From an uncultured bacterium (lineage in GTDB: Bacteria; Cyanobacteriota; Vampirovibrionia; Gastranaerophilales; Gastranaerophilaceae), in assembly GCA_902783125.1 (NCBI GenBank), contig CACZPS010000131.1:1-48573 (forward strand): 48,573 nt of DNA, in the 5' to 3' direction. Under the pieces are notes generated by a model. It saw only the letters and a list, made by a program, of their open reading frames with translations. It made no database searches and was not told where the DNA came from. Made by a program: the position numbers and the translations under genes. Positions 10,733-48,573 of the stretch are shown piece after piece (position 1 is the stretch's first letter; the number at the start of each line of letters is the position of its first letter).

Positions 10733-11197
10733 ATGAAAAAAGAAATGAAAGTTTTATCTATTGCTGCATTAGCTTTAGGTTTAGGTTTTGGTATTAGCAA
10801 CGTGGCTACTACAGCTGCTCCTGCAAGTTCTATTGCAGTTGTTGATGTTGCGCAAGTTATCAACAATAACAGTCAAGTTAAGAAATTAAAAGAATCTCAA
10901 GAAAAGAAATCAGAAGCATTGAAAACATGGGTTGAAGCTGCAAGAGCTGATGTTGAAAAACAAAAAACCGATGCTCAAAAAGAATCTTTAACTCAAAAAT
11001 ATAATAAAGAATTACAAGCAAAAGTTGATTCTCAAAGAAAAGAATTGTATGAAGAATCTACTAAGATTGATGCTAAAATTGGTGCTGCAATTGCAAAGAA
11101 TGCTCAAGCTAACGGTTATTCAATCGTTTTGGTTAAAGGTGCGGTTCTTTATGGCGGTACTGATATTACTGAAGCTATTAAAAAGGTTACTAAGTAG
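10733..11197 (+). CDS. ompH: OmpH/Skp-family periplasmic chaperone
   Basis: Skp-type holdase that keeps unfolded outer-membrane and exported proteins soluble in the periplasm. The 154-residue protein has a signal peptide (basic MKKEMK, then an Ala/Leu/Gly core) with cleavage near TTAAPA. Next comes the family opening SIAVVDVAQVI, then a long charged coiled coil (about 50-120) forming the tentacles. A C-terminal return strand (ANGYSIVLVKGAVLYGG, then DITEAI) follows, as is typical of the family. A GTG at 10715 would add six residues, but AAAGGA eight bases before the ATG at 10733 favours the latter. It has its own strong promoter and terminator. It sits 508 bases upstream of the giant exported repeat protein on the same strand, which makes it a plausible helper for it. 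Confidence 0.9.
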   Translation: MKKEMKVLSIAALALGLGFGISNVATTAAPASSIAVVDVAQVINNNSQVKKLKESQEKKSEALKTWVEAARADVEKQKTDAQKESLTQKYNKELQAKVDSQRKELYEESTKIDAKIGAAIAKNAQANGYSIVLVKGAVLYGGTDITEAIKKVTK

Positions 11198-11549: not shown

Positions 11550-11578
11550 TTGAAAAAACATGGACAATACTTTATAAT
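11550..11578 (+). promoter_or_regulatory. Promoter of the giant gene
   Basis: TTGAAA (11550-11555), a 17-base spacer and TATAAT (11573-11578). A start near 11585 would give a 5' untranslated region of about 120 bases. Confidence 0.75.
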
Positions 11579-11640
11579 ATTATTAAGAGTATTATATATA
11601 TAGTTTGAGGACTAAAATTTAATTTATCTTATGTTTAGGA

Positions 11641-11674
11641 ACATATAATTTGCGGGACGCTGTAAATTATGTGT
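11641..11674 (+). promoter_or_regulatory. Hairpin in the 5' UTR of the giant gene
   Basis: ACATATAATTT (11641-11651) pairs with AAATTATGTGT (11664-11674), ten Watson-Crick pairs plus one G-U, around a 12-base loop GCGGGACGCTGT. It ends 31 bases before the ATG and has no T run, so it would stabilise the mRNA or modulate translation, not terminate it. Confidence 0.55.
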
Positions 11675-11705
11675 TTATAAGGTTTGTTGATTTTATTCGG
11701 AAAGT

Positions 11706-14700
11706 ATGAAAAATAAAACATATAAAACCTTAATTAAATATATTTTTGTGACCTTCCTTTTTACCGGTTTAGGTTTGGGCAACTTTGTCGGTGCTGAGCC
11801 AATAAACTTGCATTCAACTTTTACAGAAGGTGACGTGTCCATTCAAACTAATGATAGTACTCCTTTAACGTATTATTTTACTCCGGTTGAAGGTTCTATA
11901 TATTATGGTGTTTCATCTGTAGCAAATGCTTTAAAAGTAAGTGATACAGGTGATTTTGTGTATGTTGATACTTCAGTTGAGCCTCAAACAACAACTTATT
12001 ATACTCTTACTTATGGTTTAAATGATAGAATGGCTGAATCAGAAACGGGTTTTACATATTCTTTAGAGCAGAATCAGTTATATTTATCCAAAGCAGTTAT
12101 GCGAACAGTGAGTGGTGCAACATATAATATTTCGTCGTTAAGTCCGTCCAATTTAGGTATTATTCATGCCAATTCACAAAAACTTTTTGATGTGCTGAAT
12201 GATTCAAGATTGAACATAGTTAATATTAACATTACAGGCGGTAATGGTGTGGATGGTGTTATTAATGTTGCAGGCAGGGGGATATTATCAATATCGGGTT
12301 CTAAAGTTTCTAATAATAATGGCGTTGATAGTTATGGTGCAGTTGTGTCAGGCGGGACGTCTACCATAAGTGATTCTTCGTTTGAAAATAATAAGGCTAC
12401 CGGTGGTTCAGGTGGTGCCATATATAATACTAATTATCTTTCTGTTCAAAATAGTTCATTTACAAATAATACGGCGTCGCTCTACGGTGGGGCTATATAT
12501 AACCAAGGGAATAACGTTACATTATCAAATGTTACTTTTGAGGGTAATCAGGCATCTCAAGGTGGGGCTATATATAATACGGGGGTGATTAGACTTCAGG
12601 GTACAAATTATTTTAACTTATTATCTGATAGTATATATAATAACGGTTCCGATGCAATCATTCAAATAAGAAATGGTGTAACAACTTTAAATTCATCAGT
12701 AACAGGTACCGGTCAATTTACGGTTGATTCTTCTGCTGAATTAGTTCTTGGTGAAAACAGTTCGATTGATTCTTCGCAAGTCTTTACAATGTCAGGAACG
12801 CTTTCTATTTTAGCAGGAGATTTTATTTTTGGTTCTAATGATTCAATTACGGGAACAATAGAATTATCATCGGGGACGAGTTTTGATTATGGTAAGGATA
12901 CAACGATATCCGCATTAAAAGGTCAAGGCACTTTAAAGAACTCTGCGTCATCTGTTTATACTATTGCATCAGGTTCTGATATTTCAGACTTTGATGGAGA
13001 TTATTATCAAAATAATAGTGATGCATCATTAATTTTAAATCCGGGGTTATCTTTGTTTACCGGTGATAAGAGGATTGAAAAAGGTACTCTTAGTGTTACT
13101 TTGATAAACGAAGGATTAACTGGCGCATCTTCTAAGAATATTAATAATATTTATTTAGGTTCAGGTGCAAAGTTAAATATTGATACAACAAACGGTGGAA
13201 CTATAAACAGTAATATTTTTAAATTTACTTCATCAGATGCGGTTGTGACCTTTGGCGCAACAACTCCAAGCACAAGTTTTTCTAACGGACCGTTTTATTA
13301 TTTATCTGATATAAATTTTAATAGTGACACATCTGTGAATAGTCCATCAAATACTATTGCTATTGCTGATTCCAGAGTTCAATTAAATTCCGATACATAT
13401 AGTTTAAATAAGTATTATTTTGATAATGCGTATGTTAATTTACGTGATAATGAATATGAAACATATTCTTTTTCTCATTTGACTTCATCTTCAAATGGGG
13501 TGAAGTTGATTGTTGATATTGATTTAGGGAATCTTACAAATGATAAAATAACGATAAATGAGTCTGATAATTTAAACTTTTACTTATCGGATATTAATGT
13601 CTCAGGTGTTCCGACAAATAATCAAGATTATAATCTTGTTATTATAAGTGGCGCTGCTCTTGCTTCAGGTATCCAATGGGATGTCGCTCAAAGTATTCTT
13701 GATGACTATGAATTTAAAACTGAGTTAAAAAATATTGTATATACAGATGATGTTTTAGCAACGAGAAAGTTTGCTGCTTATAATAATACTGCACTAAGAC
13801 AAGCAGGTTTAACTTTGACTATTACCGAATTAACTGATCCGTTGATGGCAATTAATCAGGCAAGTTCATCTCAGGATAGTAAGTATTTAAACAGATATTT
13901 TATGTTTAGAAGGAATGGTGAGCAATATTCTCTCACTGATGATTTAGGGGTTACTGGTTCAGGAAATTTGTTTATCAATTATGCAAATTCTGCCGCACCA
14001 TATAATAATCTTATTATTTCAGGTGATGATGGTCGTGTCCGTCATTCAATGTTTGAAATTAATAATTCTGATACAAGTATAACTGCACATAATGTTACGT
14101 TTAGGGATGCAGCAGTTAACAGTAACGGTCTTGCATCAGTGTTTGATGTAAAGGCGGGGAGTGTAAGTTTAAATAATGTAATTTTTGATTCTAATTCCGG
14201 TTATGCGTTATCCGTTTCTAATAGCGGGGTCGCACGACTTAATAATGTTACCTTCAATGAAGGAAGTTTAATATATGGTAATGGTATTTATAATTCGGGT
14301 TCATTAACTATTGAGGCGTCAACTATTGCCTCAAATATTACAAATGCGGGCGGAACTCTTTCTTTTTCAGGAACGGCTAATTCGTATGTGAGTGATACAT
14401 CGTCATTGAATATTAGTGGTGGTATTGTTAATTTTAATAATGCTAATATGAGAATGGAAGGTTCAATATTGCAATCCGGTGGGGTTGTAAATATTAACTC
14501 GGGTATATTTAGTAAAACAGAAAATATTGATACAAATATAGAGAATACAGGTGGTACAACTTATATCAGAGGGGTCACTTTCGGAAACGGAAGTGTGATT
14601 ATTAATGCCGGTAATGGCTCTAAATCGAGTTCAGGTTTGATTTTGGGTGCGTTACAGCAATCCGGTAGTTTGCCGACGACGACAACATTAGTAGGCGGAA

Positions 14701-17700
14701 AATTAATAAATGAGAATAGGGGGGATAATGTCCCTTATACTATTGTTGTTGGAAAATTAATCCTTCAAGATGGAGTGTCTGTTGAGGATAATAAGGGTTA
14801 TTTTGTTCTTGAAGGGACACTTACTCCGACAGGAACTGCTTCTAATATTCAAATAGCTGAGGGTGCAAATTTCACTGTTTCAGGTAATGCCGTTATTGGC
14901 GGGGAACAGAATCAAATAAATTGGAGTATATACGGATTATTATCTTTAGGTACCAATAGCAGTAATAGTGGCTTAGTTTTAGGGCTTGGCGATAATTGGT
15001 CAGGACAAATAAATCTGGAGAATGGTGCTAATCTTGTGTTGGATAGTACATATCAAGTTGATGGCAGTTCAAATAGAGGAATTACCCTTGGAAGTTATTA
15101 TTTGACTTCAAGCAATAGTAATTCAACATTTACAAATAAAAATAATAATATTAATATATCAGGTAGTAATTCGGCTTATGCAGGTTTATATATTCAGGAG
15201 GGCGGTAGTTTAACATCCAGTTCGTCAAATATATTTAGCGGAAGCAAACAAATAAATATGACGGATTCTTCAAATTCTGCAACTGTTACAATTGATGATA
15301 CTACGTCCCTGTTTACATTTAATAATTTGCATTTGGGTTCTAATGTAAAAGCAACGGTGAAATCTGCGGGTGGAAGTTTAGTTAATGGTACGATGTATTT
15401 TGAAGGTTCTGATTCTAAGATGATATTTGAACCAACAGCGGCGAGTGTTACATATATCTTGAATCCTGTTACTTGGTCAACTGTTTCTTCTCAGAATGTA
15501 ACGTCACTTCTTAAGAATAGTTTAGTGTTTAATAACAGTTCATTGTCTGATGTCATATTAAGATTAAATGCGAATAGCAGCGGTGAGTATTTGTTTACGG
15601 GTCCAAAGTATGTTTTGAGAAATGTTATTATGAATTTGCAGGAGGCTGAAACTCCTGTATATGATACTTATACGTTTAATAATTTGTATGTTCATAAGGA
15701 TTCTAATAAGACTGAAAATGACCCTTCAAAATATAATCCTTCTTCCGGTGTTGTTTCACAACCAAAAATTGATGTAACAATTGATTTGGATGTAGCAGAA
15801 GGTAAGGCTGATAATATTGTAATAAACAACGGGTCAGGTTTAATAGATGATTCTGATGTGATAACAAGCGGCGGGGTCTTGAATATTAGCAATATTAAAT
15901 TTTATAATTATCAGGGTAAGACCAGTTCCGCAAGGGTTCTTATTTTAACCGCTCCGACAGCTACTGTCAGACTTTCCGTAGATAATGATGTTTGGAGTAA
16001 AATAAGTCAAAATGCTTTAAAACCTCAGGTTAATTGGAATGAGATTATTGCTACGGTTACACATAATGTTGTATCTGAAACAGCAGGTTCTTTAACAAGA
16101 TATTATATAACTTATGATTTTGGGCTTCCGGGTGATTTATTGGCAGCGTGGAATATAGAAACTTTTTCAACTCCTGATGATAAAACCTTTAGTTTTACAT
16201 CGTCAACTCAAAGAGAAGAATATGTTATATCAAACTCTGATGGTTTGGGGATAACTTCTCAGAATAAAAAAATTGTTGGTTTAAGTTCCGAAAAGAATAT
16301 TATCAATGCTCAGGGTGCTCATCCTATGTTTCAATTGACAAAAACTGATGTATCGGGTGTTTATGTTGATAAAGTGACATTAACAAATGCCTATTCCGAT
16401 AGAAGCGGTTCGGTAGCTTATATTGACAGTCCTTCGGCTACGTTTAGTGTAGAAAACTCAACAATATCACTGGCTAAGGCGGATTCATCATCGTCGGTAG
16501 ATGGTGGTGCAATTTATGTGAATAGAGGTAATTTATTCTTAACAAATTCTTCTGTTGAAAATAATGCGATATATTCATCTGACTTAGCAAGAGGCGGTGC
16601 AGTTTTCGTCGGAAAAGATTCTAATACGGTTGAAATAATAAATACGTCTTTTGCGGGTAACCATGCTACATCAACCGGTTCGTTTGCTTTAGGGGGGGCA
16701 ATTTATACCCAAAAAGATTTAACTATATATGCTAATGATGGTAAGACAGTTAGTTTTAGTGATAATTATACTGAAGGACAGGGGTCTACAAGGAATAATG
16801 CTATTTATGTTGAAACTTCAACTTCTTCAAATCCTACGTTGACTTTATCGGCATCAGACAGAGCTTCATTTAAGGTCGATGGTTCGATTGAAGGCGGTAC
16901 AATTGATTATGAGCAGGGTGCTGATAAAACATTTAATTTATTACTGAATGGTAACAGTAATACTAATTTTACATTATCTGATGTTATTGGAGCAGAAATA
17001 GGTTCATCCTCCCTTGTGACTTTTTCGACAGGCTCTAATCTTAAATATTCAAATATAAATATGAATGGCGGGATTTTAACGTTGTCAGGAACTGTAATAA
17101 CAGAGTCCGGTAATAAAAACTATGCTGTTAGTCTTCTAAACAGTACATCAGGAATATTTGATAGTATTACTTTACAAAATAACGCAGGCGGTGCTTTGAT
17201 GTTAAGAAGCGGGGCTTTTGTTGTATTGTCAGGCACAAATAATTTTAGCGGGAACAGTGTTACAGGTATAAATGCTTCAGGTGCGGCTATCAATGTTGTC
17301 ACTTCAAGTCTTACCGGAGTTACTCTGGGAACGTTTTCTAATAATAGTTTAAGCGCTACGGGTTATGCTGCAGGCGGTGCGTTGTATTTGTTGCAAATGC
17401 GTAATGAACCAACTATTTCCGCATCTTTTATAGGTAATAGTGCTGTGACTGATTCTGTTACTTCAAGAGCATTAGGTGGGGCAATTTATTCTGATTCTAA
17501 TTTTACTATTGCAACAAGAGCATCATCGAAAACGATTGATTTTCAAGGTAATTATGTTCAGGATAGTAACGGTAGAGTTAATAATGCTATTTTTATGGCA
17601 AACGGTTCAACACTTAAACTTAATGCTTCAACTTCAGGTTCGTATATAAATTTCTATGATACTATTGATGGCGGAAATGTTGATGCTAATTTGTCAACGG

Positions 17701-44700: not shown

Positions 44701-47700
44701 AAGGTATGGTTACAACATCAAAAGGTAGTTTTGGTTATGCAGACAAGAATGTTGTTAATGTTGTCGGAAATAATGCAATATATGGTGGTGCTATATATAA
44801 TGAGGGTGTTATAAGTTCGACATCAACATCATTTGTTGGGAATACGGCAGTTCAAGGTGGCGCAATATATAATGAGCTGGCATCTGAGTCGGGTTCTGAT
44901 GATCTCGAAACGAAGTTGACCTTGAAAAAAGCTGCGTTTAAATATAATAGTGTTTCTTCGAACAGTGATTATAGTGATGAAGTAAGAGGCGGTGCTATTT
45001 ATAACACTGCGAATATAGATATTCAAAATACTACCTTCACAGGCAATTATGCAAAAGGCGGTGAAGGTGGTGCAATATATAATGATAACGGTGATTCAGA
45101 ATTTATTATTAAAAAATTAACCTTTACGGGTAATTATGCTCAAAAAGGTAATGCGATATACAATGCAGGTAATATAAATACATTATCCGCAACATTTAAG
45201 TCCAATAAAAACGGTACGGAACCGATTATTGGGACGTTTGGTGGCGCAATATACAATGCGGGAAGTATTTCCAGAATAGAAAACTCAACCTTTACCGATA
45301 ATATATCAGGTAATGGTGGTGCTATATATAATGCCGATGAGGATTCGTATATTGGTACAATGTTAAAATTAACTGTTGGTAATTCAAAGAAAGCAAATAC
45401 TCAGAATGTTGCTGTTAATGGCGGGGCTATTTATAATGAGGGTTATATTGAAACAATTGACTCATCAAAACTTTCTTATAATAAAGCGATAGAAAATGGC
45501 GGTATTATAGTTAATAATGGAACTATTCAAAGCATTTTGAATACTGCAATGTCAAACGGAACTGCAAAGAACGGTGGCGCGATTTATAATACAGGAATTA
45601 TCAATAATATCGATAGTAAATCTGCATTGGCAAATAATACGGCATCAGGTAATGGCGGGGCTTTATATAATTCCGGAGCTGACGCAGAAATAACTCTTAC
45701 AGGTTTGACGTTATCTTCTAATGTGTCAACAGGCGGAAGCGGGGGTGCAATATTTAATACAGATAATGGTGTTGTACATCTTGTGAATGTACAAGGCAGT
45801 AAAACAAATACAACCTTTAAATCGAACAAAGCATTGAATTATGGTGGTGCAATCAGCAACTCAGGTAAGATGGATATAGCAGCTGCAATATTTACATCGA
45901 ACACGGTTACAGATGCAAACGGTGGTGGCGGGGCTATTTATAATAACGGAGAAATAACAATCGCTTCATCAACTCAATTTGTATCAAACAGTGCAAGCAA
46001 CGGTGGTGCTATATATAATGCAAGTAATGGTACGATAAAATTATCCGGAGTTATATTTGGTGATTCTAAGAAAGCAAAACTTGCTAATATGGCAACGGGT
46101 AATGGCGGTGCAATTTTCAATGAAGGTAAGATAACTGTTGAAGCGTCTACTCTTGCAAGAAACACTGCAGTAAATAACGGTGGTTTGATTTATGGTACAT
46201 CTGCTTCAAACACAGAATTGGTAGGTAACCAAACAATTGAAAATAATACGGCGGGTAATTTAGGTGGAGCTGTATATACATCAGGCTCATTAGTTACAAA
46301 CTACGGTTCTTCAAGTCCAAATCTCGTGTTTACTGCTAATAGTGCAGTGTCCGGTGGTGCGATTTATGCTGATTCGACATCAAATTTAGATATAGCAAAT
46401 ACTAAATTTATTTCAAATAGTGCTACAACAGGTAATGGTGGTGCAATATATACAAACAGTAGTGATTTAAGTTCAATAACATTATCTGTGTTTGAAAATA
46501 ATACGGCTATTTCTGAGTTTGGAAAAGGTGGTGCAATATACAATTCAGGTGAATTGGAAATTACCGATACAAACTTTAAAAATAATTTTGCAGAGCTTGG
46601 CGGTAATATTTATAACGCAGAATCAGGTGTGCTTAATTTAGGCACAGGTGTAACATTTGAGTTTGTTTCTCAACCAAAGACAAAATACGTATACTCAACT
46701 TCAGGCGGAGCAATATACAATGCAGGAAAATTAAATATATCCAGTGTTATGGAATTCAGCGGGATGTATGCAAAAGGAAATGGCGGTGCAATTTATAATT
46801 CCGTAGATGCGGTTATAACAAGAGAAGAAGCCTCCGGAACATTAACTTTCTCCGGAAACAAAGCGGATGCTAATGGTGGAGCATTGTATAATGCTGGTAT
46901 TGTTAATCTCGAGGATACGGCATTTATAAGCAATGTTGCGGTTAATGGTGGTGCTATTGCGAATGATGGCGAGTTACACGTAAATAATTCCGTAACATTT
47001 ACAGGTAACAGTTCTGTTAAGAGTGGTGGTACAATCTTTAACGCAAACAAACTTATTGTTAAAGGTACTTCTGATGGAGTTGTTGAATTTGCAGAAAGTT
47101 ATGCTCAACAAGGTGGTGCAATTAGTAGCGGTTATGGACTTGGTACTGATCAAACCAATACTAAACTTGAAGTTGAGTATGTTGTCTTTAGTAAAAATTA
47201 TGTATTTAACCAAGAAAATGATACAGGTTCATTTGGTGGTGCTATTTATAACGGCGGAAAGAATAATCCGTTGTATACAACAATAGCACATGCTGTATTT
47301 GACAGTAATTATTCTAATGGAAACGGGTTGCCGACTGCGACAGGTGGCGGTGGAGCAATATTTAATGCAAGTGGCGCGTCTATCATTGATGTTGATGAAG
47401 ATGGCAAAACGATAGCAGGTTTGACTGATTCTAAATTTATCAATAACTATACTTTAATTAACGGTGGTGCTATCTACAATCAAGGTACATTAAAGATGAA
47501 GGATAACTATTTTGAAGGGAATTATGCAAATTCTTATGGTGGTGCTATCTTTAACGATACAGACAGTTATTTGGAAATAAAACAAACATTAAAAGATGAT
47601 GATAATTATAGATTCTATAACAATTATGCGTTAAACGGCGGTGCTATTTATAACCTAAACGGAACCTTAGTTTCGGAAAAAATAACTTATGAAAATAATC

Positions 47701-48573
47701 ATATTATAGCGGGAGTAAAAGGTTTTGGTGGCGCTATTTATAATAATAATGGTAAGTATGTTTCTAAGAACGATACCTTTATTAATAATACCGCAGCAAA
47801 CGGTGGAGCTCTCTACTTGATGGGCGAAAATAATGATATAACTGATGCAACATTTAACTTAAATAAAGCTGTTAGTCTAAATCAAGGCGATAATTCATCA
47901 GGTTTGGGCGGTGCTGTTTATGTAGCGCCAAATTCCAATGTAGTAGTAAGAAATTCAGAATTTACTCAAAATACTGCGGCTCTTGGTGGCGCTATTTATG
48001 TCGCTTCAGGCGCAACTGCTACATTAATAGATACAAATATACAAAATAATATTGCAACATCATTAACATCATCCGGAGCAGGAATATATCTTGATGTTAA
48101 CAGTATTGTTAATATTATTGCTAAAACTCAAGATGTAATTATAAATAATAACACAACAAGCTCAGGTAATTTGAGTGATATTGTTATGGCTTCAGGTTCG
48201 ACTTTAAGGCTTGACGGTTATGAAAATTACTCGATTACTATAGGAAAAATAGAAACAACACCAAGTTTGCCTAATAGACCTACAATTGAGTGTTACGGTA
48301 ATATTTCAACCGATGAATACTCATATATCAGTGATAGGGTGAATGTTGTAGCAAAAGGCGGACATATTGATGTTTTAGATGAATCAATTTTTACAAATAC
48401 AAGTTTCTCGGTTGAAGGTAACACAACATTAGATATATCAAACGGTTCTCTTGGCAGATTAGCATTTAAACGTCTTTCTTTGAAATCAGGTACAACAACA
48501 AATATATCAGTCGATGCGAGCCTTAAATCAGGTCAGGCAGATCAAATAACTGCTGAAGAAAAATCGGGCGAAG
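11706..48573 (+). CDS. Giant secreted beta-helical repeat protein, at least 12,289 residues, 3' end outside window
   Basis: One frame, with codon starts at positions divisible by three, is open from the ATG at 11706 to the last base. Residues 1-30 form a signal peptide (basic MKNKTYK, hydrophobic core, cleavage after VGA). Next come an N-terminal unit with three GGAIYN motifs, fourteen supermodules of about 720 residues and an array of about 45 GGAIYN/FxxN repeats of the polymorphic-membrane-protein (Pmp) type. The repeats alternate short strands with Asn/Gly/Ser/Thr/Asp-rich turns, as in pectin-lyase-like right-handed beta-helices. Cysteine and tryptophan are rare. All fourteen supermodule heads keep the same frame, so no net frameshift exists. 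A secretion or anchoring domain is expected beyond the window. Likely a surface adhesin or fibre, but that role is inferred. It has its own promoter and lies just downstream of an OmpH/Skp gene. Confidence 0.95.
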   Translation, partial: MKNKTYKTLIKYIFVTFLFTGLGLGNFVGAEPINLHSTFTEGDVSIQTNDSTPLTYYFTPVEGSIYYGVSSVANALKVSDTGDFVYVDTSVEPQTTTYYTLTYGLNDRMAESETGFTYSLEQNQLYLSKAVMRTVSGATYNISSLSPSNLGIIHANSQKLFDVLNDSRLNIVNINITGGNGVDGVINVAGRGILSISGSKVSNNNGVDSYGAVVSGGTSTISDSSFENNKATGGSGGAIYNTNYLSVQNSSFTNNTASLYGGAIYNQGNNVTLSNVTFEGNQASQGGAIYNTGVIRLQGTNYFNLLSDSIYNNGSDAIIQIRNGVTTLNSSVTGTGQFTVDSSAELVLGENSSIDSSQVFTMSGTLSILAGDFIFGSNDSITGTIELSSGTSFDYGKDTTISALKGQGTLKNSASSVYTIASGSDISDFDGDYYQNNSDASLILNPGLSLFTGDKRIEKGTLSVTLINEGLTGASSKNINNIYLGSGAKLNIDTTNGGTINSNIFKFTSSDAVVTFGATTPSTSFSNGPFYYLSDINFNSDTSVNSPSNTIAIADSRVQLNSDTYSLNKYYFDNAYVNLRDNEYETYSFSHLTSSSNGVKLIVDIDLGNLTNDKITINESDNLNFYLSDINVSGVPTNNQDYNLVIISGAALASGIQWDVAQSILDDYEFKTELKNIVYTDDVLATRKFAAYNNTALRQAGLTLTITELTDPLMAINQASSSQDSKYLNRYFMFRRNGEQYSLTDDLGVTGSGNLFINYANSAAPYNNLIISGDDGRVRHSMFEINNSDTSITAHNVTFRDAAVNSNGLASVFDVKAGSVSLNNVIFDSNSGYALSVSNSGVARLNNVTFNEGSLIYGNGIYNSGSLTIEASTIASNITNAGGTLSFSGTANSYVSDTSSLNISGGIVNFNNANMRMEGSILQSGGVVNINSGIFSKTENIDTNIENTGGTTYIRGVTFGNGSVIINAGNGSKSSSGLILGALQQSGSLPTTTTLVGGKLINENRGDNVPYTIVVGKLILQDGVSVEDNKGYFVLEGTLTPTGTASNIQIAEGANFTVSGNAVIGGEQNQINWSIYGLLSLGTNSSNSGLVLGLGDNWSGQINLENGANLVLDSTYQVDGSSNRGITLGSYYLTSSNSNSTFTNKNNNINISGSNSAYAGLYIQEGGSLTSSSSNIFSGSKQINMTDSSNSATVTIDDTTSLFTFNNLHLGSNVKATVKSAGGSLVNGTMYFEGSDSKMIFEPTAASVTYILNPVTWSTVSSQNVTSLLKNSLVFNNSSLSDVILRLNANSSGEYLFTGPKYVLRNVIMNLQEAETPVYDTYTFNNLYVHKDSNKTENDPSKYNPSSGVVSQPKIDVTIDLDVAEGKADNIVINNGSGLIDDSDVITSGGVLNISNIKFYNYQGKTSSARVLILTAPTATVRLSVDNDVWSKISQNALKPQVNWNEIIATVTHNVVSETAGSLTRYYITYDFGLPGDLLAAWNIETFSTPDDKTFSFTSSTQREEYVISNSDGLGITSQNKKIVGLSSEKNIINAQGAHPMFQLTKTDVSGVYVDKVTLTNAYSDRSGSVAYIDSPSATFSVENSTISLAKADSSSSVDGGAIYVNRGNLFLTNSSVENNAIYSSDLARGGAVFVGKDSNTVEIINTSFAGNHATSTGSFALGGAIYTQKDLTIYANDGKTVSFSDNYTEGQGSTRNNAIYVETSTSSNPTLTLSASDRASFKVDGSIEGGTIDYEQGADKTFNLLLNGNSNTNFTLSDVIGAEIGSSSLVTFSTGSNLKYSNINMNGGILTLSGTVITESGNKNYAVSLLNSTSGIFDSITLQNNAGGALMLRSGAFVVLSGTNNFSGNSVTGINASGAAINVVTSSLTGVTLGTFSNNSLSATGYAAGGALYLLQMRNEPTISASFIGNSAVTDSVTSRALGGAIYSDSNFTIATRASSKTIDFQGNYVQDSNGRVNNAIFMANGSTLKLNASTSGSYINFYDTIDGGNVDANLSTVDDTPYYINVSGNATSGYVNFYNKVRNAEITVDSGILSVIGDSASSAPLDLLYTSEDSGYSSITVNGGTVRFANVMLKNATRSINANINNAKVVMTNSVIDASGDDKGDAVNLGTLTSSNSSYIIDFIFKSNDLENPVETDTFNLNKNSSGDITTSVNWVYNNKNLIKAGIYPIITSGTGATFSLDYASRNTVWNYELSEDGTVKYDQFIGQRRVRVSPQYSNSIEIYDIKEDTLRAISLANIENRQFYFTIDQDEKYELYSDLYLDDEQYPVSGNLDIVGGSDRTDIITGKTKNSDGEDVQYAMYKIVSNPNVVININNLTIKDVGAYLDTNSSVAYLNEASSRLNLSNVTLTDNDGYAIYNENGKVTFNSVVVSARPEGEESTIFNEILNESGTSSDYGMTFSGRNTFGTKITNRGSIQTSGTNTFNASVANTGVIQLMGVTNLKGTSDNAVVVSSGQGGSANTGTLNMLGTTTLDSYSEIAYNQNINLGTSTNPNARINISEGTLNLDNRDNWYGTINMNQDNSVLNYSGIANNDYSVGGESFSRGVLNASRGNLNLVKRDSSGVSPILYITENGDSLDDNVKVNLGRDTILYISNHPNSDSAISFTLGEDIWNGRVSLENSYFIIRAGQDNKNLILNTSDMLTSIESDQGVSTFENQGVDIELGKAQNFSGIYLQNGGSMKVDSGSTFFNSDSEKIINSGTVDVIRSNEIDFGNVSLGSGSEMTVSSRGGDINSDVIKEFLGSGAKAKFVLSPQDSQNSDYYTLYNIPSAQYNTVIIGDSNNTKVTTAVLGSFDYRGNTVYEFDNALVDLTRDSSSSDGLNTYRMSSVTVSDNTKFKIDVNLEADVLTSNISDRLVFNATPASDETQYINIVINNMTKPANTEDRVIQIIDSSLVPDMYQLKLDSIAESEKSWTFDDYKTGNVYWNTFTGTKKLDLYSSTSTNDSIVITCISEDTLRKINTLTTVSDRYFRFTDANQTYYVKDNTGTTASGTMNIVGSDMATNYIEATNNKNSDNETRSYTMFQNTIAGTTLNISDVTIRNAVAGDDSEEKGSSKASVIYNAGENTVTNLSNVTFSDNKGNTIYNTSTLNLSGVVFNLTNPDPSGNSIYNLGTVQFVSSGAGIVSNRSVGNITNEGTVNIGQGASLSMYSPAIFYNNSSGASLNISGRLLLADGARLNINGGNVLVSGIVAGISNASFGTVDLSKDANLSISGQNASLAEGLKINVKGNLLITNNYSEREDLKYGVILGNNDYLVNTGEGSENYGILSLGDKGVASLRQGLKSVSGEVDNTYTISNQEIKGVATSRLYNGQSGVDGNGITLKIASDESSVFTGRYTQYGSNTKLVMDTTQYESAKMFGGDKYIEEGASVEVTSGTIDYLNMYLGNNVSYTHKSTSENGGVINNELLKFTNGNAVAKFTSNGADKAKYSLNAITPASIQNTSNIINLDKAVVTLLNNDYSAMNNGSFVKYVFNNSTLDFTAETGAANYDNYLFREFETSDSEYSIDIDTVNHKSDIIEIVSGGSGKGAVKIVKIKFDDNFGQNSDGVYQIIKGGDGQLYLDIDAIKDDEEYNWSYDIDPETKTVYNDTYLGTKNLELAKTTNENDSIKFVKHQTDTLKGINQYNTSYSADKNRYFLFQGAGAKTYKSIDNAGVTANGVLNIRGREDLDAGMDTIDADGHYLFEVTNPDVELNISNVDIKNAGVKSDYVQASVIYLVNADAKVNLANVTLEDNNGNALYNSSGTLSLENTNVKASETATNSIYNSGELNLHSGNNIETNITNTGNIVIEGVNNTIKSVSGRGALNAGEDSSINLTGVIDKNQTVSLANNSKVTVKQNGTLNMNTDSVDVSKSDSWNIGSTVVIDGGTLEYDGLTENGYISSTSNGGNLNILSGIFNVVGKSASSTSDLNEAVNVTVKDNATLVLTGYEEVILDSADKLFSRSRLGMINYAKLIIKGITYEDSINGGIVYTDKLIMNNDTAGMLFNKVTSPSEQEYKDVEFENAGIDIDITSDQSAYTGIFTQSADKTTTVTRSGKIFGGTKYIQAGTLKITTPTEGIYYTDINIGSGAKLGNYATSVTGGVVNSEVVKFTGENGVAGFYKDSSYYGDYVKYDLASDISRTGRANMVEFVDALVTLTAEPVVNANRKEYLYNGGSVYSFKDSYINLTASENYPDSAIVPSASDSGDIYRFTKLQLDNTRFAIDVDCKNRVFDEIYVTSSDSSGKILISAINWISEPVVDDGQEFSAPMQILHSDNDNIQLELGFTRRWEYTLDDYTDSESGNINVTYKNYLGSKTLKLDTVSTTNDSINFNYSKDDLLKAINTKFLGDGKTRTFTFILPEPSDSDSQTYKLTDNSELTAGGVFNITGTPTESENLPVSVIDAVGTYSLFNVKNSGTTMNVSDVIFQNAVIVVDSQNPNLAVNASVFDVNNTSSTVTLQNVVFRNNAGNALYNRATVNMSGVRFNKRGDILTENTVTNLGTINVVGENTFETNISNQANAVFNIGGTSVVSGGINNAGIVNVSGNTQLQGNIINTNDITLKDSVVVSGVISNTLNGLISVNAPSNSEDVISIRNTVNNAGNIEINNGGNLKLNSLITSYDNEYGTLDIKTGGVLEVGTSGIVESGNKLKLGGKSGEKIGTLNVNQGTVYIDSEDTMDGKIILGVDIESQDAPETDLSVIHYSGSKLTDSANKYVIEANAGNLYLDDGVLKLDSNDKLSNAVNYILNKGTFEAQNLSSALILANGDVWNPDASINLLGSTVLVLASDLNTNSKLELSNVDQLKGGVNSLVTNPDVEITVSADNSNFIGKYSQDKSGFTSSNIPLLTVTKEGKVFGGIKEINTGAVNIATPNEIYYRGFVLGGNKSNRVTFTNASSGGELTNEVVKFSGSYATAVFDSNSDTNKANYVLKNIESGEGNNILVFNNSNVELQDIDYSAISDIQFAGSVVSLQSDISGEKYNNYKFDKLTNSNTTYKIDVDTSGFGAESGSSYADTITFGGTSTGNVVISDINFTEIRPDKNATGKIQILTDVTTNSALQLTGDALNTTWEYKLSDNEFKTGTTVSIKYDDFLGTKGIKSAKYSDSSIVDDSIELYNSSNDDVLRTVNMFEEDGLTQRTFVIKGENPQDVVYNLSKNSGITASGYFVIDGITPSNPPSVDNPLDADEIGTIDAKGAYSLFQISNLGTTLDVSGVRFINAKAVNDAGEVMNASVFDITASDAVVNLTNVILSSNELNAIYNRGNMTFKNVTVSADTTPANSIENYGRITIVGINEFVSSFVNNTDSDVSNGGIINIVADSVNPVNVTKVFFNNLDNKGTLKTHSGITELRTVVNTGEISLGAKDVISGEISGDGKLSIVFEMLDSATAVVTGGKISEDVQLNIDSLGNLSILGGTVNLNDNDIWAGTLIMNSDENNSDVVSVLNIRGLTSNNGKLNANKGNINIESGNLTVRGTDKLSDDVNVNISQGGKLSLNGVKSGAITEGVNLASGDIWAGSVELTDSNLTINNGLTDDNKLTLASADQLKSDNLSQLENKGIELTISADQSGFGGKYLQTDGSLIIYAGNYNGSTGKLGGVKRIENGTATVYSNENINYTDFVLGGDNDTTLTNYSIGGDVTSGVVRFEDGLGNAKAVFDSVNDNRANYNLSTMSGNGTVEFNNSVVKLSNTDYTGSTTYKFGENTLVDSLDGNYKSYTFDNLVSDNKAEYSIDINFAQMDVPQPVDVSADKFYVGDSSTGVMTISNINFETFDVNTTEGIVQILYGINGSTSHNVQLALSQELAGQVWTVNMDSFIVDNEYVVNSDSFIRQKALALAQTKTENDSIAVVVTRREDTLRVINTFDGANGKTRNFVFKEGDAPYQLLEHTYKTASGVMNVKGVDKSQSIIDGTNRNRDIEHGGLYTDEYLSMFILENVSTLSISDVTIINAAVNGVNESHNASVIDMYNSGAIANLTNVILSDNSGRAIYANSGKINLENVRFEDSSNSNSIYLTGSAELTASGANYFGSAIVNNNAKVNISGDNNEYKITVLTGGSDGKLTLSGVNKFDSLTGVTENGGAISNSLGALDIKGAQFLNNKATSKGGAIYNSGIQTTSINGTFTNNQADYGGAVYITGARDVTISGIFTENKATTAGGAIWSDSNFTIRADGEGALTSFSGNRANDVSNAIYIDSQNNPVISMVVNDGGKIAVADTISGRNKYNIEVSGNNNTNNTAQLTGKILNADIKVNDIRTVVDFSELGEISEGNAENTTFTVNSGTLELNTVVLNHWTTSDDRESINFNVVKPADSSSSVPALVLNKTNVNLSNMAVTDINNSDAVYMGKLSSDADSKFVIDVILSDDYTLQEDGSYIYNTENAADNITVEAGSSGTVTLTDINFVNMGSTNDGDIQIIKGAYTQGTSINLAFSQNIIDEYVINGWEYTIKDNYIKDGKADVEFSDFIGTKNLSLTSTKKDTPDWDGRYDSVKIVSNKQDTLQAVNQYSDTGSENRTFRFTSELAKETYKLIGNTGVTTTGVMNVLGIRGNDDTIDAQGNYSMFVLSNSGTTLNISDVKIQNARVTSNASVLDVQADDAVVNLTNVILSQNSGNAIVNSGTVNFNGVNVEARGGNIINNAVLDMVSGVNNISTVLTNNAEVHSALGSNNTYLGEIKIGSNNAVFNLEGTDNIGARVILNDSSYTPEFNIFGTTTVRENSSFEAPNLKINIKDSGNLVIDGSSANLNISSSGNDTWAGKLTIDNDGSVKLTSNNDSITNGLINAVSGSFELVSGAFEVYSASSIANDVNVILTSGNFVLSNNNVTLAEGDVWSDNTNVLLRDNTTFTVGTGLNTNSVLNLTSTSQFVGEEDNNYSENSNFINNGITININVDESGIYRGKYTQKAGKLVINNSARVFGEYTDDSDNVVHSLKDIQGGEMVVDYTTKSIDYGNVRLGTNAKLTNTSISGDVDSELLSFNGSNSTAEFKSVNNGSVYNLYDGIASSLSGSINTVLFRGSDDNNLKVILKGNSFINNTTTMSYVFANSNVSLQDGNTYDENDILQSVVLTNYTFKSLSADKSNFSIDVDLNAKESDMLSIRGIADDSVDNTITLNDINFVNVDQTNSGKILVLPNKIDGITLALDSAMADKTWEYKVDDRTGPNSRVVEIDGKDYIQIKFTDFLGKKILRLANYNDDTLTNCDSIEIYNERTDDLLQKINQLNTPDDIEARQFLFNEADQIHNINIPDGTLGLGKTGTGNFDIIGRKSVTTGNYSIIDGKSKYSMFELSQNTNMTVQNVEIKNALTNTVNDKGSAFDISNADAKLKLTNVIFTNNEGNAIANTGTVTLRNVEFKPADSGVLNAIGNYGIIQTALNDDSSLTTNTFGTRIGNYSTSTSTGRMYFRANDIITGGIHNEGEIQFLGMSTISEALDETALENYGTIITAVALLGIDDVKTVFNRAINNYASGTIQTIGVDEFNKDILNRGTINFGGDETISAAITGDGVINIDKVNITIDGVDTSDIVPTVKVNEGGSVAYTQRVTLADGAKLNINGGEVNLDNLQTESADIWAGELILNSGVLNLSKIENSGQFNGVGGTVNILENAVLNVNNGVNDNVSVNITQGKVKLSGVNEDNKALLTMSDNDIWTNDTQNTGVELGEYSELTLNSGLNTDSKLSIAKDQIKSSDNSAQVTNLGVELTINGDNSGFGGKYLQGVDDSTVIYTVAPKLVMTSDGKMFSGTKTIYAGSVEITRENNIDYNDFELNNGVQFVNRSAGGVIDESVIKFIGNSDSDGAVATFSSVDTSAGALKADYELYNIQSGVSADTISIVNSNVTFKSYNDTDPDNKYYDYEGTTLYRFNGSNIDLSINDDKAINNYKFTRLISTDSSYKIDVDFGTYTIAPDGTVTTSGYSADTLVLGANSSGIVRLAALNTINDSQYNNVLIKILDTDSSRIALTLDSDFVADFESNHTYSISDSKFVTQGELIISYIEYLGTQTIEAVEYDENSVTVDSIKVSSKVTKDVLSEVNRYDGIDDRTFTFESNKIDSAVTDRKYTLTSDTGVTASGEMNVVGIQDNNDIIDANGHSMFVVSNENTKLNISDVTIQNAGLDANASVLDVQAGDAIVNLKNVIIKDNEGVAIYNLGTINTLKNSVNKFISDILNEGFDDISGTINFQGNDTILGNVENNGDINFSGSASLLSSLTGSGNVNVKSNGVNTPSLDVGAGGNIAEDISILLESNAKLRITGDETSGGVVTFNSNDNIQGELIMNNANSTLNIKGLDSNGLLNLTEGNVNITSGVLEILKESVFSNNLKISLGKTLDEYGKIIFNEHNATTENSIELSAGDSWNGGFVELNKSYLTVKAGLNGNSRLTLNNDSQLIGDVNSKFVNNGTDIMISADMSGFEGVFEQVDGGSLTVNQNGTLFSGLKNIKAGRIDITRGDSGIDYKNVVIDVFRDAAPASGVLSDFVNKSLSSNGGNIDNSIVTLSNSAKYVVLEFSADGLASGWVNYNLLEKIENGNINKILFRYSDVKFGNVDSSGNIIDFTGNTVYDFKDRSKVNLSDGYLNNYRFSTVYTDDNSMYYIDLDLFNGTSDTITYTTEVQKPGADDKILLGGINFLNKPSEDNDNITIIKDDIIIPIIFDESVHESDKNRFLDITNIPESDRTYTYNITSDARYDQFTGVKTLTLGDDRLSLKLSVSEMRDTLAVLNQHIFSSLVNPENIRTFRFVGESTDAYQTYTLTENTGKTEFGTMNIVGVIRDEGIDVINADGHSMFEVVNGNTTLKISDVQIKNAEAADNMNASVLDITNATAIVNLDNVKFTDNKGVAIYNAGRLLALNDVVFDSAEDSNNTIVNITNIATSGTNEFNTGITNSGTINFGGVDNINVNIINSNKLNFIGDAVVSANIVAPENELSMVNVSGNLTMKGTNSAKVSISDSQGVNVYSSGKLTLDNAYINFDTGDSLSSGATVSLSNSDLTYSNITSEGIVLKSEKNSTFKLNSGSIGLIDGSNIFDNTKIDLVSGNLRVGSNVDFTLADGDTLSENTHIYIAKSTSSDAVGILNLMRGLNPYTDTEGKTSYIVNLSDSNITGSGRLNADGVVINLTSDESGFDGIYEQKLGTILNVSTLGKLFIGDKIVSASTVKIERAEGIDYNKFKLGSDNTEFYNNSVSENGGEVSNSVISFIGSGALAVFGKSTSAPSSVDKVKYTLANDISNENVNTVKFVDSELTLGTNNYASGQTVYELENSSINVLDDIIRAGSERRYKFSTLKSLDNSATLQLDINFHNRTADEFEVGENSSGIITVTKFNVLDVDQNDSGIIQILYGRNGNIRLGIVDNLEYKFLIDDSSHIVDNTIILNQYDFIGAKSLRVAKTVNDDDSVEIYNSDVDDTLKALNQYDNTLRNYDSRNFKFTYNEVKGDDDTLYQVKENLGETAVGVFNIIGRAGKNDTISAKGPQIINGVIYEDDIRQHSLFEVVNDNTVLNISNVIIKDAIINTNIRNASVLDITSTGAEVSLENVILSDNAGNAIYNAGLLKFNNVTVSESTIEADNSVKNVGTLETQGKNQYNSAFINNGVMTINGTDSFNSTLSGNGTVNIKDNAVVNVSENTIISDNREDNNDMTLNIAGTMNINGGSVSVNTGDTWTGLVNLNYGTFNYSNLDISAKLLAKVTDSESTNLNIKSGKLTIETYDESITNYIGSGVNVNISEGAVLTLVGNKEYRTNTLNLQTGDNLNGTIVLKSAWLTLEDGFKLNNSDEHIFNDVQIKADESSKLQNEGVKITLNTDFSQDVVGIYEQNGAEAELNVTKDGVIFGGEKDINAGKVYIETGDKGINYNNIKLGNNTDFTNMATVKYITNAEGEQEEVIHTISKDTVEFVGANAKMTFTSSLNPPFEPTSKDVLANNGKTTYAVDIIQNGTNAQGDLNTGNVVNFKGVNVVLTGELDETSLDEAIGLIRYDNKVTYKFDESYIGMIDGSSNRYYFSDFRIGNSTDNDVVHMVIDVCADNATMDSIYVDSNASRGAVSIDEIALVRNPDKDSVEFSGYAYRILNGENNLHLILGEVIKENHGIQAQTLDQYDGDKSSVDVDWNAYIGKISIQLAQVFDDGSYTLNFTNPLDANGLYIRQMFTKDLLRDLATYVPKDDPMRVRNFNFTKPTEQTYKLIDNTAGYVRDRESGNFLDVDNNVIYFIKDVDGNYGWTHEEGGTVIEPDTKPVFEGTSKGTLSINGVNNENNIIDAYGEIICFEKVADDSSYSASLSARKDVETDVITPQKYHHSMFVLNNETNLNVIGVTIKNAYRGDDSKYEVPYVNYDGQQAYKTNYQVYEDYDVTKGNGSVISQISTKSNIILQDVNIINNASYGKGGAIYALNGFTINAVNSDVLFENNYQNAQNVNPEDEKFDLTGAKKNDIYIYNRNDLAETSYDVTMTFNALEGKTINLKDGIEWFDTDKTLFIEINKADGATGDVLIGGDFGGSMNYIIDTTGGGIGYVDDKVGINTVKGIIIRGDVRYSMDVNSNVRWVEQLDRTGRTSDIIAFENGIESSFINTDSEGNKYKLLITSNSFNDIGKFTGARAILTRLFVEEVNTTDYIALLDNDGKKLSEVGDIISWISGDNMYYAKLGINGAVTYGKAIDDTNNVIYQALNNSKNNTLKLTDDQILYGVTDVNGKVESISDYLSLVNSKTTIDAKNFKIATYNQIEGFKAGMNGTKPKTIVVKNANEISGFDGAFITDGGTINVSNSNIHNNESDDNGAVARDENGKLTISGSKKVHTTIVKNKAKDSGGAVYTTGTFTSKFVDFGNDLGGNKAAYGGAIYSENKSTLTNTSFANNVASESGGAIYSVGVLSVSSSQFNKNNAKLGGAIYQELDEDIKSSLSIKSSGFTSNKVISEDEDVLGGAIYSEVYITDSKSTFEGNIAESSGDDSQALGGAIYVNTAITPAKNKKLLNKLTSTKFNRNKVINETQSENAKGGAIYVETADISSIAPNEGTRTVLNISKASFGDYKLSGTGNSAYSGGGVYNKNASLSLSNTSFYYNDAIYGGGLYNSFEGMVTTSKGSFGYADKNVVNVVGNNAIYGGAIYNEGVISSTSTSFVGNTAVQGGAIYNELASESGSDDLETKLTLKKAAFKYNSVSSNSDYSDEVRGGAIYNTANIDIQNTTFTGNYAKGGEGGAIYNDNGDSEFIIKKLTFTGNYAQKGNAIYNAGNINTLSATFKSNKNGTEPIIGTFGGAIYNAGSISRIENSTFTDNISGNGGAIYNADEDSYIGTMLKLTVGNSKKANTQNVAVNGGAIYNEGYIETIDSSKLSYNKAIENGGIIVNNGTIQSILNTAMSNGTAKNGGAIYNTGIINNIDSKSALANNTASGNGGALYNSGADAEITLTGLTLSSNVSTGGSGGAIFNTDNGVVHLVNVQGSKTNTTFKSNKALNYGGAISNSGKMDIAAAIFTSNTVTDANGGGGAIYNNGEITIASSTQFVSNSASNGGAIYNASNGTIKLSGVIFGDSKKAKLANMATGNGGAIFNEGKITVEASTLARNTAVNNGGLIYGTSASNTELVGNQTIENNTAGNLGGAVYTSGSLVTNYGSSSPNLVFTANSAVSGGAIYADSTSNLDIANTKFISNSATTGNGGAIYTNSSDLSSITLSVFENNTAISEFGKGGAIYNSGELEITDTNFKNNFAELGGNIYNAESGVLNLGTGVTFEFVSQPKTKYVYSTSGGAIYNAGKLNISSVMEFSGMYAKGNGGAIYNSVDAVITREEASGTLTFSGNKADANGGALYNAGIVNLEDTAFISNVAVNGGAIANDGELHVNNSVTFTGNSSVKSGGTIFNANKLIVKGTSDGVVEFAESYAQQGGAISSGYGLGTDQTNTKLEVEYVVFSKNYVFNQENDTGSFGGAIYNGGKNNPLYTTIAHAVFDSNYSNGNGLPTATGGGGAIFNASGASIIDVDEDGKTIAGLTDSKFINNYTLINGGAIYNQGTLKMKDNYFEGNYANSYGGAIFNDTDSYLEIKQTLKDDDNYRFYNNYALNGGAIYNLNGTLVSEKITYENNHIIAGVKGFGGAIYNNNGKYVSKNDTFINNTAANGGALYLMGENNDITDATFNLNKAVSLNQGDNSSGLGGAVYVAPNSNVVVRNSEFTQNTAALGGAIYVASGATATLIDTNIQNNIATSLTSSGAGIYLDVNSIVNIIAKTQDVIINNNTTSSGNLSDIVMASGSTLRLDGYENYSITIGKIETTPSLPNRPTIECYGNISTDEYSYISDRVNVVAKGGHIDVLDESIFTNTSFSVEGNTTLDISNGSLGRLAFKRLSLKSGTTTNISVDASLKSGQADQITAEEKSGE
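12411..12578 (+). repeat. N-terminal GGAIYN triplet, exact 75-base period
   Basis: GGAIYNTN, GGAIYNQG and GGAIYNTG begin at 12411, 12486 and 12561, exactly 25 codons apart, each preceded by an SSFxNN- or VTFxGN-type segment. This is the classical Pmp repeat (GGAI plus FxxN). Confidence 0.85.
13836..16133 (+). repeat. Supermodule 1 of the giant protein
   Basis: Head DPLMAINQ (residue 711), then YFMF, SMFEINNSDTSITAHNVTF, one DNWSGQINLE segment, YAGLYIQEGG, and near the end the strand-rich DVTIDLDVAEGKADNIV segment. Confidence 0.8.
16134..18395 (+). repeat. Supermodule 2, with inserted GGAIY motifs
   Basis: Head GDLLAAWN (residue 1477) is the most diverged. The module contains PMFQLTKTDVSGVYVDKVTL and five Pmp-like motifs (GGAIYV, GGAVFV, GGAIYT, GGALYL, GGAIYS) between about 16.5 and 17.5 kb. 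It is therefore a hybrid of both repeat types. Confidence 0.75.
18396..20570 (+). repeat. Supermodule 3
   Basis: Head DTLRAISL (residue 2231), QFYF, then LNLSNVTLTDNDGYAIYNEN. It carries DNWYGTINM and EDIWNGRVSLE. It ends with VTVSDNTKFKIDVN and a segment leading to the next head. Confidence 0.85.
20571..22550 (+). repeat. Supermodule 4
   Basis: Head DTLRKINTL (residue 2956), YFRF, TASGTMNIVG, YTMFQNTIAGTTLNISDVTI, GNTIYNTS and FTGRYTQYG. The long IWxG segments are absent and the unit is among the shorter ones. Confidence 0.85.
22551..24647 (+). repeat. Supermodule 5
   Basis: Head DTLKGINQY (residue 3616), YFLF, TANGVLNIRG, LFEVTNPDVELNISNVDI, GNALYNSS, YTGIFTQ, IFGGTKYIQAG and FAIDVDCKNRVFDEIYV. 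Confidence 0.85.
24648..26990 (+). repeat. Supermodule 6
   Basis: Head DLLKAINTK (residue 4315), TFTF, TAGGVFNITG, YSLFNVKNSGTTMNVSDVIF, GNALYNRA, DVWNPDASINLLG, FIGKYSQ, VFGGIKEINTG and YKIDVDTSGFGAE. Confidence 0.85.
26991..29174 (+). repeat. Supermodule 7
   Basis: Head DVLRTVNMF (residue 5096), TFVI, TASGYFVIDG, YSLFQISNLGTTLDVSGVRF, NAIYNRG, two IWAG segments (NDIWAGTLIM, GDIWAGSVEL), SGFGGKYLQ, KLGGVKRIENG and YSIDINFAQMD. Confidence 0.85.
29175..31085 (+). repeat. Supermodule 8, with GGAIYN motifs in place of IWxG segments
   Basis: Head DTLRVINTF (residue 5824), NFVF, TASGVMNVKG, LSMFILENVSTLSISDVTI and GRAIYANSG. Then come GGAISN, GGAIYN, GGAVYI and GGAIWS between about 29.8 and 30.1 kb. 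This is the shortest unit (1911 bases). Confidence 0.85.
31086..33215 (+). repeat. Supermodule 9
   Basis: Head DTLQAVNQY (residue 6461), TFRF, TTTGVMNVLG, YSMFVLSNSGTTLNISDVKI, NDTWAGKLTI, GDVWSDNTNVLL, YRGKYTQ, VFGEYTD and FSIDVDLNAKESDMLS. It shares a 30-base identical patch with supermodule 11. Confidence 0.88.
33216..35636 (+). repeat. Supermodule 10
   Basis: Head DLLQKINQL (residue 7171), QFLF, YSMFELSQNTNMTVQNVEI, GNAIANTG, two IW segments (ADIWAGELIL, NDIWTNDTQN), SGFGGKYLQ, MFSGTKTIYAG and YKIDVDFGTY. This is the longest unit (2421 bases). Confidence 0.85.
35637..37679 (+). repeat. Supermodule 11
   Basis: Head DVLSEVNRY (residue 7978), TFTF, TASGEMNVVG, HSMFVVSNENTKLNISDVTI, GVAIYNLG, GDSWNGGFVEL, SGFEGVFEQ, LFSGLKNIKAG and YYIDLDLFNGTSDTI. 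Confidence 0.88.
37680..39734 (+). repeat. Supermodule 12
   Basis: Head DTLAVLNQH (residue 8659), TFRF, GTMNIVG, HSMFEVVNGNTTLKISDVQI, GVAIYNAG, SGFDGIYEQ, LFIGDKIVSAS and LQLDINFHNRTADEFEV. Confidence 0.88.
39735..41951 (+). repeat. Supermodule 13
   Basis: Head DTLKALNQY (residue 9344), NFKF, GVFNIIG, HSLFEVVNDNTVLNISNVII, GNAIYNAG, GDTWTGLVNL, VVGIYEQNG, IFGGEKDINAG and a VIDVCADNATMDSIYVD segment. Confidence 0.88.
41952..43911 (+). repeat. Supermodule 14, atypical transition into the GGAIYN array
   Basis: Head DLLRDLATY (residue 10083), NFNF, YKLIDNT, then an extra segment containing NNVIYFIKDVDGNYGW before HSMFVLNNETNLNVIGVTI. It keeps YSMDVNSNVRW and an SGFDGAFITDGG segment, lacks IWxG segments, and passes into the Pmp-type array. 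The right boundary is approximate. Confidence 0.7.
43900..48090 (+). repeat. Dense GGAIYN/FxxN (Pmp-type) repeat array
   Basis: About 45 motifs of the form GG[AG][IVL][YF] occur at roughly 70-125-base intervals, for example GGAIYNEG near 44779 and 45420, GGALYNAG near 46872 and GGAIYNQG near 47462. They alternate with FxxN-type segments such as FTGNYA, FENNTA and FSGNKA. This is the signature of chlamydial polymorphic membrane proteins and related beta-helical autotransporter passengers. The count was made by eye. Confidence 0.85.

Follow-up and report, generated by a model that had tools for sequence, protein, structure and literature searches.

What does a bacterial reading frame encode that runs for more than 12,000 codons and is still open at the end of its contig, and is it a single gene at all? 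The question is raised by a stretch of 48,573 nucleotides (the window) from a Candidatus Gastranaerophilales species, a gut inhabitant among the relatives of cyanobacteria that do not photosynthesise; the stretch constitutes the complete contig C131 of a 1.897-Mb draft genome (G000; 181 contigs, 87.6% complete). The frame begins at position 11706 of the window and leaves it at position 48573. It proves to be a real gene, and its product is very probably a giant classical (type Va) autotransporter, most likely an adhesive or self-associating fibre.

A single open frame

The giant gene (11706..48573; + strand, as are all features below unless stated otherwise) runs from its ATG at 11706 to base 48572 through 12,289 codons without one stop, its 3′ end being missing. 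Given the local base composition, such a frame would stay open by chance with a probability of about 10^-456, and the remaining two + frames across the gene contain 885 and 2,041 stops. GC content by codon position is periodic (about 0.41/0.38/0.21) and constant over the entire gene. The initial annotation, which had been made from the letters of the window and had proposed a single open frame of at least 12,289 codons leaving it, is thus borne out. Its estimate of a protein of at least 1.2 MDa also holds, the calculated mass so far being 1.312 MDa. The product has a pI of 4.4 and contains 11.9% Asn, 10.7% Ser, 9.5% Gly, and 8.9% Thr, together with six Cys residues.

The frame opens with a putative signal peptide (aa 1–30; 11706..11795; MKNKTYKTLIKYIFVTFLFTGLGLGNFVGA) that combines a positively charged start, a hydrophobic core, and small residues at a presumed cleavage site after VGA. 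These traits were judged by eye and agree with the signal-peptide start that had been proposed at 11706; the orthologues in genomes G005, G006, and G007 start alike. No long hydrophobic stretches outside the signal peptide were noticed by eye in the giant protein.

Orthologues and the question of misassembly

The same gene can be followed into related species. Contig G005:C9 carries a frame of 12,773 aa from its ATG that is colinear with the window protein (48.4% identity, 12,038 aligned residues), and G002:C23 carries one of 12,538 aa, open at the contig end and again colinear (46.0% identity over 11,683 residues). G006:C3 holds only the first half of the protein (the first 6,255 aa, 44.9% identity), and three contigs of G007 tile the window protein at aa 7–3586, 3583–7954, and 7968–11995. 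Hence, the giant gene is present in five of the eight genomes of the genus examined, and the species were followed at 39%–48% identity. Identity between orthologues is 35%–61% in every 500-aa bin with substantial coverage.

A frame of this length might nevertheless have arisen during assembly, through the misjoining of shorter autotransporter genes via their repeats. The genome is a draft short-read metagenome-assembled genome of 181 contigs, C131 does end in a collapsed repeat, and the last ~570 nt of G005:C9 are scrambled, all of which would suit such an artefact. The longest exact self-repeat inside C131 is, however, only 30 nt. C131 and contig C180 of the same genome have exactly their last 87 nt in common, ending on the same base, and the same is true of C127 and C128; two contig pairs of this kind point to an assembly k of about 87 (de Bruijn graph merging), and repeats of at most 30 nt would thus be unable to confuse the assembly internally. 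Furthermore, the number and order of the repeat units described below are equal in independently assembled genomes that differ at more than half of their residues. We therefore regard an artefact as extremely improbable: the occurrence of this gene in related species, with its 13 repeats unchanged in number and sequence along the protein, argues for a real, selectively maintained protein rather than an assembly error. The wrong joining of repeats against which the initial annotation had cautioned is excluded by the exact-repeat lengths and the colinear, diverged orthologues, which likewise support its view of a giant single gene. Frame 11706–48573 is a real gene and not a misassembly. A union of C131 and C180 into one gene was also considered and is ruled out, as both contigs run 5′ to 3′ into one 87-nt end.

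Thirteen units between Pmp-type ends

Behind the signal peptide lies an N-terminal cap with three Chlam_PMP repeats recognised by Pfam (aa 31–709; 11796..13832). This is followed by 13 units in tandem of 636–807 aa each, which are about 30% alike (pairwise identity 23%–45% where BLAST aligns them) and open with a head of the form 'xDTLxxINx..RxFxF..GxxNIxG..SMFxxxN..TxLNISxVxIxNA..NASVxD..AxVNLxNV..NxGNAIYN'. Head search and unit comparison place unit 1 at aa 710–1476 (13833..16133); unit 2, the most divergent, at aa 1477–2228 (16134..18389); unit 3 at aa 2229–2954 (18390..20567); unit 4 at aa 2955–3614 (20568..22547); unit 5 at aa 3615–4312 (22548..24641); unit 6 at aa 4313–5094 (24642..26987); and unit 7 at aa 5095–5822 (26988..29171). 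Unit 8 (aa 5823–6458; 29172..31079) contains inserted PMP-type rungs, visible in the motif density, and is followed by unit 9 (aa 6459–7169; 31080..33212), unit 10 (aa 7170–7976; 33213..35633), unit 11 (aa 7977–8657; 35634..37676), unit 12 (aa 8658–9342; 37677..39731; set by unit comparison), and unit 13 (aa 9343–10129; 39732..42092).

The remainder of the frame, presumed to be the membrane-proximal passenger (aa 10,130–12,260; 42093..48486), returns to GGA[ILV]/FxxN rungs, as judged by Pfam and motif density; the Chlam_PMP match here spans aa 10,433–12,289 at 5.9e-54. The 87 nt that end the contig (48487..48573) are those identical with the end of C180, and with them a collapsed C-terminal cassette begins. 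Both motif counts of the initial annotation were close. Its fourteen repeat heads correspond to 13 strong ones and partial ones at aa 109 and 10,170; its figure of about 50 GGAIY motifs suits GGA[ILV] (53), whereas exact GGAIY occurs only 34 times. FxxN occurs 91 times, and the GGA motifs cluster at aa 0–2000, 6000–6200, and 10,300–12,200.

Fold of the repeat unit

The 13 units match nothing in Pfam, in scans of nearly all 12,289 aa, and their profile finds no match among PDB sequences. An AlphaFold2 model of unit 12 with the next head, based on an alignment of the 13 window units only, is an all-beta coil or beta-helix with a pLDDT (predicted local distance difference test) score of 87.6. The eight PDB matches of this model below E 0.001 in Foldseek are antigen 43 (Ag43), pertactin, and a self-associating protein (E 6e-6 to 8e-4). 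A right-handed beta-helical passenger is thus predicted from the model of one unit, extrapolated to the full length and with the handedness read from the matches. This model and its likeness to autotransporter passengers lend support to the beta-helical surface protein that had been proposed from composition.

The passenger could alternatively serve mainly as an enzyme or toxin carrier, after the manner of SPATE, subtilase autotransporters, or contact-dependent toxins, and not as a fibre for structure or adhesion. Some beta-helical passengers do have catalytic domains, and PL6 lyases appear among the weak fold matches of the unit. In the Pfam scans, which cover nearly the whole giant protein, however, Chlam_PMP is the sole domain, with no toxin or protease family found, and an NCBIfam scan of two stretches returned only repeat-type matches and one sub-cutoff match to rhombotarget A. 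As the best structural matches are, moreover, self-associating adhesins, an enzymatic or toxic passenger appears quite improbable.

The C-terminal cassette and the probable route of secretion

How would such a passenger reach the cell surface? In paralogue C88 and in contigs C26, C34, and C30 of G005, 'AAPVAAQLGGYLTQ.NSYDQAF' and the barrel are preceded by a stretch to which the final residues of the giant frame (..NISVDASLKSGQADQITAEEKSGE) can be aligned. The 87 nt common to C131 and C180 are in the same frame, the G005 orthologue passes from its passenger into linker and barrel pieces, and the family passengers examined with a complete 3′ end carry a barrel. All 27 family barrels match TIGR01414. 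A model of one of them shows 12 long strands together with an alpha-helical linker; in Foldseek, the first 19 PDB entries that this model matches are autotransporter entries without exception, led by EspP, BrkA, and AIDA-I. By sequence, the barrel profile finds no match in the PDB. From the 3′ ends of the paralogues, about 400–430 residues would be missing from the window protein, which would bring the full protein to about 12,700. We infer that the window gene, too, encodes a barrel; the initial annotation is most likely to be refined to an autotransporter whose barrel lies just past the contig end.

Under a different explanation, the protein would be a real giant surface beta-helix but not of type Va, being anchored otherwise or secreted by a different system (two-partner, type I), with the likeness of the cassette irrelevant. 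The barrel is indeed not within C131, and giant secreted proteins of other phyla go by other routes (PMC10066038; PMC12863079). This explanation is nevertheless unlikely in view of the alignment of the last residues with the segment before linker and barrel, the 87 nt shared in frame with C180, the continuation of the G005 orthologue into linker and barrel sequence, and the barrels on the complete family passengers.

Several observations do weigh against a type Va adhesive fibre. The stop codon and the barrel of the giant gene are not in the assembly, lying beyond the end of C131. In G005:C9, the linker and barrel stand in other frames within the last ~570 nt, an apparently scrambled contig end in a multi-copy region, which may reflect assembly noise or a real lesion. 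PF03797 has no match in this genome or in the family barrels scanned against Pfam, the barrels being matched by the more general TIGR01414 alone. The template-modelling (TM) scores of the unit are low (0.13–0.19 by query length in the top eight, with probabilities near 1), as expected for long helices of different curvature, and hence support a fold class rather than a specific relative. Finally, no adhesive ligand domain was recognised in the giant protein.

Within one genome, the cassettes of the family are nearly identical between paralogues while the passengers differ (ends of C131, C180, C127, and C128 in G000; C30 and C34 in G005), which suggests gene conversion of barrels among paralogues; short-read assemblies would lose the 3′ ends of these genes for the same reason. 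Classical autotransporters end at the last barrel strand. Some family members continue after the barrel, for about 200 residues in locus L011 (G000:C1, 8645–12694) and also in L056 and L057, with proline-rich NKPAPVQQVKPQSV repeats in L056; such an extension would face the periplasm.

A proposed model of the fibre

On the autotransporter interpretation, the protein would be exported by Sec through its N-terminal signal peptide and be chaperoned in the periplasm, probably with the help of the Skp encoded next to it. The C-terminal alpha-linker and 12-strand barrel would then insert into the outer membrane, and the passenger would be translocated as a hairpin, its C-terminal end folding first and the rest following outward to form a single continuous beta-helix. 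Rungs of the chlamydial Pmp type would thereby come to lie closest to the membrane, followed by the 13 diverged units of about 700 aa and then the N-terminal cap. At 22–32 residues and 0.48 nm per rung, the fibre might measure about 0.18–0.27 µm. Its likeliest job would be adhesion, whether to the mucus or cells of the host or to microbes nearby, or else self-association; selection would keep the number and order of units constant. The protein is thus a candidate attachment organelle for the poorly known, largely uncultured Gastranaerophilales, and raises the question of how about 12,000 residues are exported by a barrel and the Sec/BAM/Skp machinery.

A frozen repeat array

Between orthologues, the proportion of synonymous differences (pS) is 0.67 overall and that of nonsynonymous differences (pN) 0.35, and a clear excess of pS over pN is seen in each of the 1,500-aa bins; as synonymous divergence (dS) is near saturation, ratios of the two are rough. 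The whole giant gene is, by this comparison of sequences, under purifying selection. When the full-length alignment is used to set the unit boundaries in the other species, every unit has its best match in the unit of the same rank, in 13 of 13 cases for each of the pairs C131–G005, C131–G002, and G005–G002 (chance of about 10^-10 per pair). A head search made independently lists 12 heads in G005:C9 and as many in G002:C23, the spacing being doubled at the place of the weak unit-2 head. The constancy of order argues against interchangeable units.

A decaying or selectively neutral array, long merely since duplication outruns deletion, would be in keeping with the variable copy number of many repeat-rich surface genes, and the second giant gene of this genome, C180, is not colinear between species. 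In the window gene, however, units have been neither gained, lost, nor reordered despite divergence to 46%–48% identity, and purifying selection acts over its full length; a neutral array hence has next to nothing to recommend it. The behaviour of C180 shows, moreover, that the constancy of the array belongs to the window gene and not to the method or the genus.

More tentatively, the 13 units may form a tether of fixed length and specialised positions, in which each unit has its own role as binding site or spacer, neither number nor order can change, and a length of about 0.2 µm is itself selected. We consider this possible but by no means the likelier outcome. If true, the length would serve, for example, to bridge a layer of mucus or glycocalyx or to keep hold of one particular partner cell, and the protein would be the largest autotransporter in the literature searched, encoded by a giant surface gene with a repeat order demonstrably conserved across species.

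It is easy to write off giant genes of bacteria as accidents of assembly or as repeats in rapid decay. Here, one protein of 12–13 thousand residues can be tracked across five species, with all 13 repeats in place in the three species tested, and the reason why a 1.9-Mb genome gives 5.5% of its DNA to such fibres thereby becomes testable by sequence evolution.

The wider family and the neighbourhood of the gene

Six family members in this genome account for those 5.5% (103.8 kb). Relatives of the cassette in Genome Taxonomy Database (GTDB) contigs come almost exclusively from Candidatus Gastranaerophilales/Melainabacteria, or from bacteria of guts and rumen. Of 239 genomes of the taxonomic family, 60 contain the head module; they represent 21 of 41 genera, and most of the frames concerned measure 1,000–6,000 aa. 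Among the matches listed, frames above 9,600 aa with this module are confined to the genus of the window.

The second giant gene of the same family and genome is larger than the window gene. It fills the whole of G000:C180 (L007, L008, and L009; 1–43912) as a single frame that is still open at either end after 14,637 codons, and its 5′ end has no overlap with any further contig of the bin. As possible orthologues of C180, G002:C128 and G005:C13 were rejected, there being no colinear match over their length. Also rejected was a frame of 26,690 codons in G005:C11 (L013–L017), which is artificial and contains 72 kb of masked N (~8,000–80,000); the readable part before the masked N is a family passenger.

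Directly upstream of the giant gene lies a gene for a periplasmic chaperone of the Skp/OmpH family (154 aa; 10733..11197; Pfam OmpH, 2e-10). In G005:C9 and G006:C3, orthologues of this Skp (88% and 92% identical) occupy the same position directly before the giant gene, which in G002 adjoins another gene instead. In Escherichia coli, Skp serves outer-membrane proteins and autotransporters as a chaperone, and its conservation as a neighbour fits an autotransporter. The 508-bp gap between the two genes holds a possible sigma-70 promoter (TTGAAA-17-TATAAT; 11550..11578) with 11 of 12 consensus matches, a weak candidate in that the regional count of such sites equals the shuffle expectation. A second Skp/OmpH-like gene, beside a BamA-like gene (judged by sequence), is found close to the complete paralogue in L011 (G000:C1, 3271–5710, − strand); the genome thus has two Skp-type chaperone genes, each near an autotransporter gene.

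Elsewhere in the window, 3734–6844 (+) encodes a 1,036-aa fusion of a superfamily-1 helicase (AAA_11/AAA_12) and a C-terminal nuclease of the MTES_1575/DUF559 type, which resembles parts of the anti-phage proteins Hhe, ProA, and candidate PDC-S37. At 1177–3288 (−), lipA (lipoyl synthase) adjoins a dihydrolipoyl-dehydrogenase-like gene that does not reach the cut-off of the curated family; it encodes 412 aa, whereas the models have about 460.

Comparison with known systems

A literature search for autotransporters or giant surface proteins in Gastranaerophilales/Melainabacteria found nothing relevant. Among autotransporters at large, a bioinformatic survey reported that the largest one known was BigE (10,429 aa), in which a passenger segment is repeated eight-fold (PMC3419190); in a later review, characterised passengers reach 3,374 aa (PMC9289746). 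On the autotransporter interpretation, BigE resembles the window protein in being a giant classical autotransporter with a replicated passenger segment (eight-fold, against 13 units here), beta-strand-rich repeats, and a small C-terminal barrel, which is expected for the window protein. It was, however, compared with beta-proteobacterial proteins and has a BrkA-like passenger and an EstA-type barrel, standing as a single outlier among smaller relatives (PMC3419190). The protein described here is longer (at least 12,289 residues, about 12,700 expected), belongs to Gastranaerophilales, combines Pmp-type rungs with a unit family that has no Pfam match, and occurs in five species.

Chlamydial polymorphic membrane proteins (Pmp; PF02415, TIGR01376) likewise have a signal peptide and a beta-helical passenger with FxxN/GGA(I,L,V) rungs, together with the alpha-linker and barrel that are expected here. 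The repeat regions of the Chlamydia trachomatis Pmps comprise about 400–1,200 residues and 9–25 rungs (PMC10715098). The multiple FxxN and GGA(I,L,V) motifs that define repeats of the Chlam_PMP/POMP type are present in only part of the giant protein: the rungs stand at its ends and in one insert, whereas most of it consists of another unit. The Pmp middle domain, which lies between repeats and barrel, was not detected by Pfam in the stretches scanned of the window gene, whose last part falls past the contig end, nor in the complete C1 paralogue. Of the solved folds, those of Ag43 and pertactin come nearest to the repeat unit, and that of the AIDA-I transport unit ranks among the nearest to the family barrel; the solved passengers, however, have about 500 residues, and the units lack detectable sequence similarity to PDB chains.

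Larger reading frames exist elsewhere among bacteria, reaching 39,678 aa in V. archaeovorus (PMC10066038). The giant frames of Omnitrophota, to which it belongs, and Giant1-5 of Apilactobacillus (PMC12863079) are likewise single genes of tens of kb in small genomes with a presumed surface or adhesive role, and their share of the genome is similarly percent-scale (6% in A. kunkeei (PMC12863079), 5.5% here). Neither group is described as autotransporters: the Omnitrophota proteins have predicted transmembrane helices and poor conservation (PMC10066038), and Giant1-5 are Gram-positive secreted proteins with SH3b ends (PMC12863079). With BigE and larger bacterial frames already reported, the kind is thus known; what is new, as far as the literature searched shows, is the size, the lineage, the unit family, and an array frozen across species.
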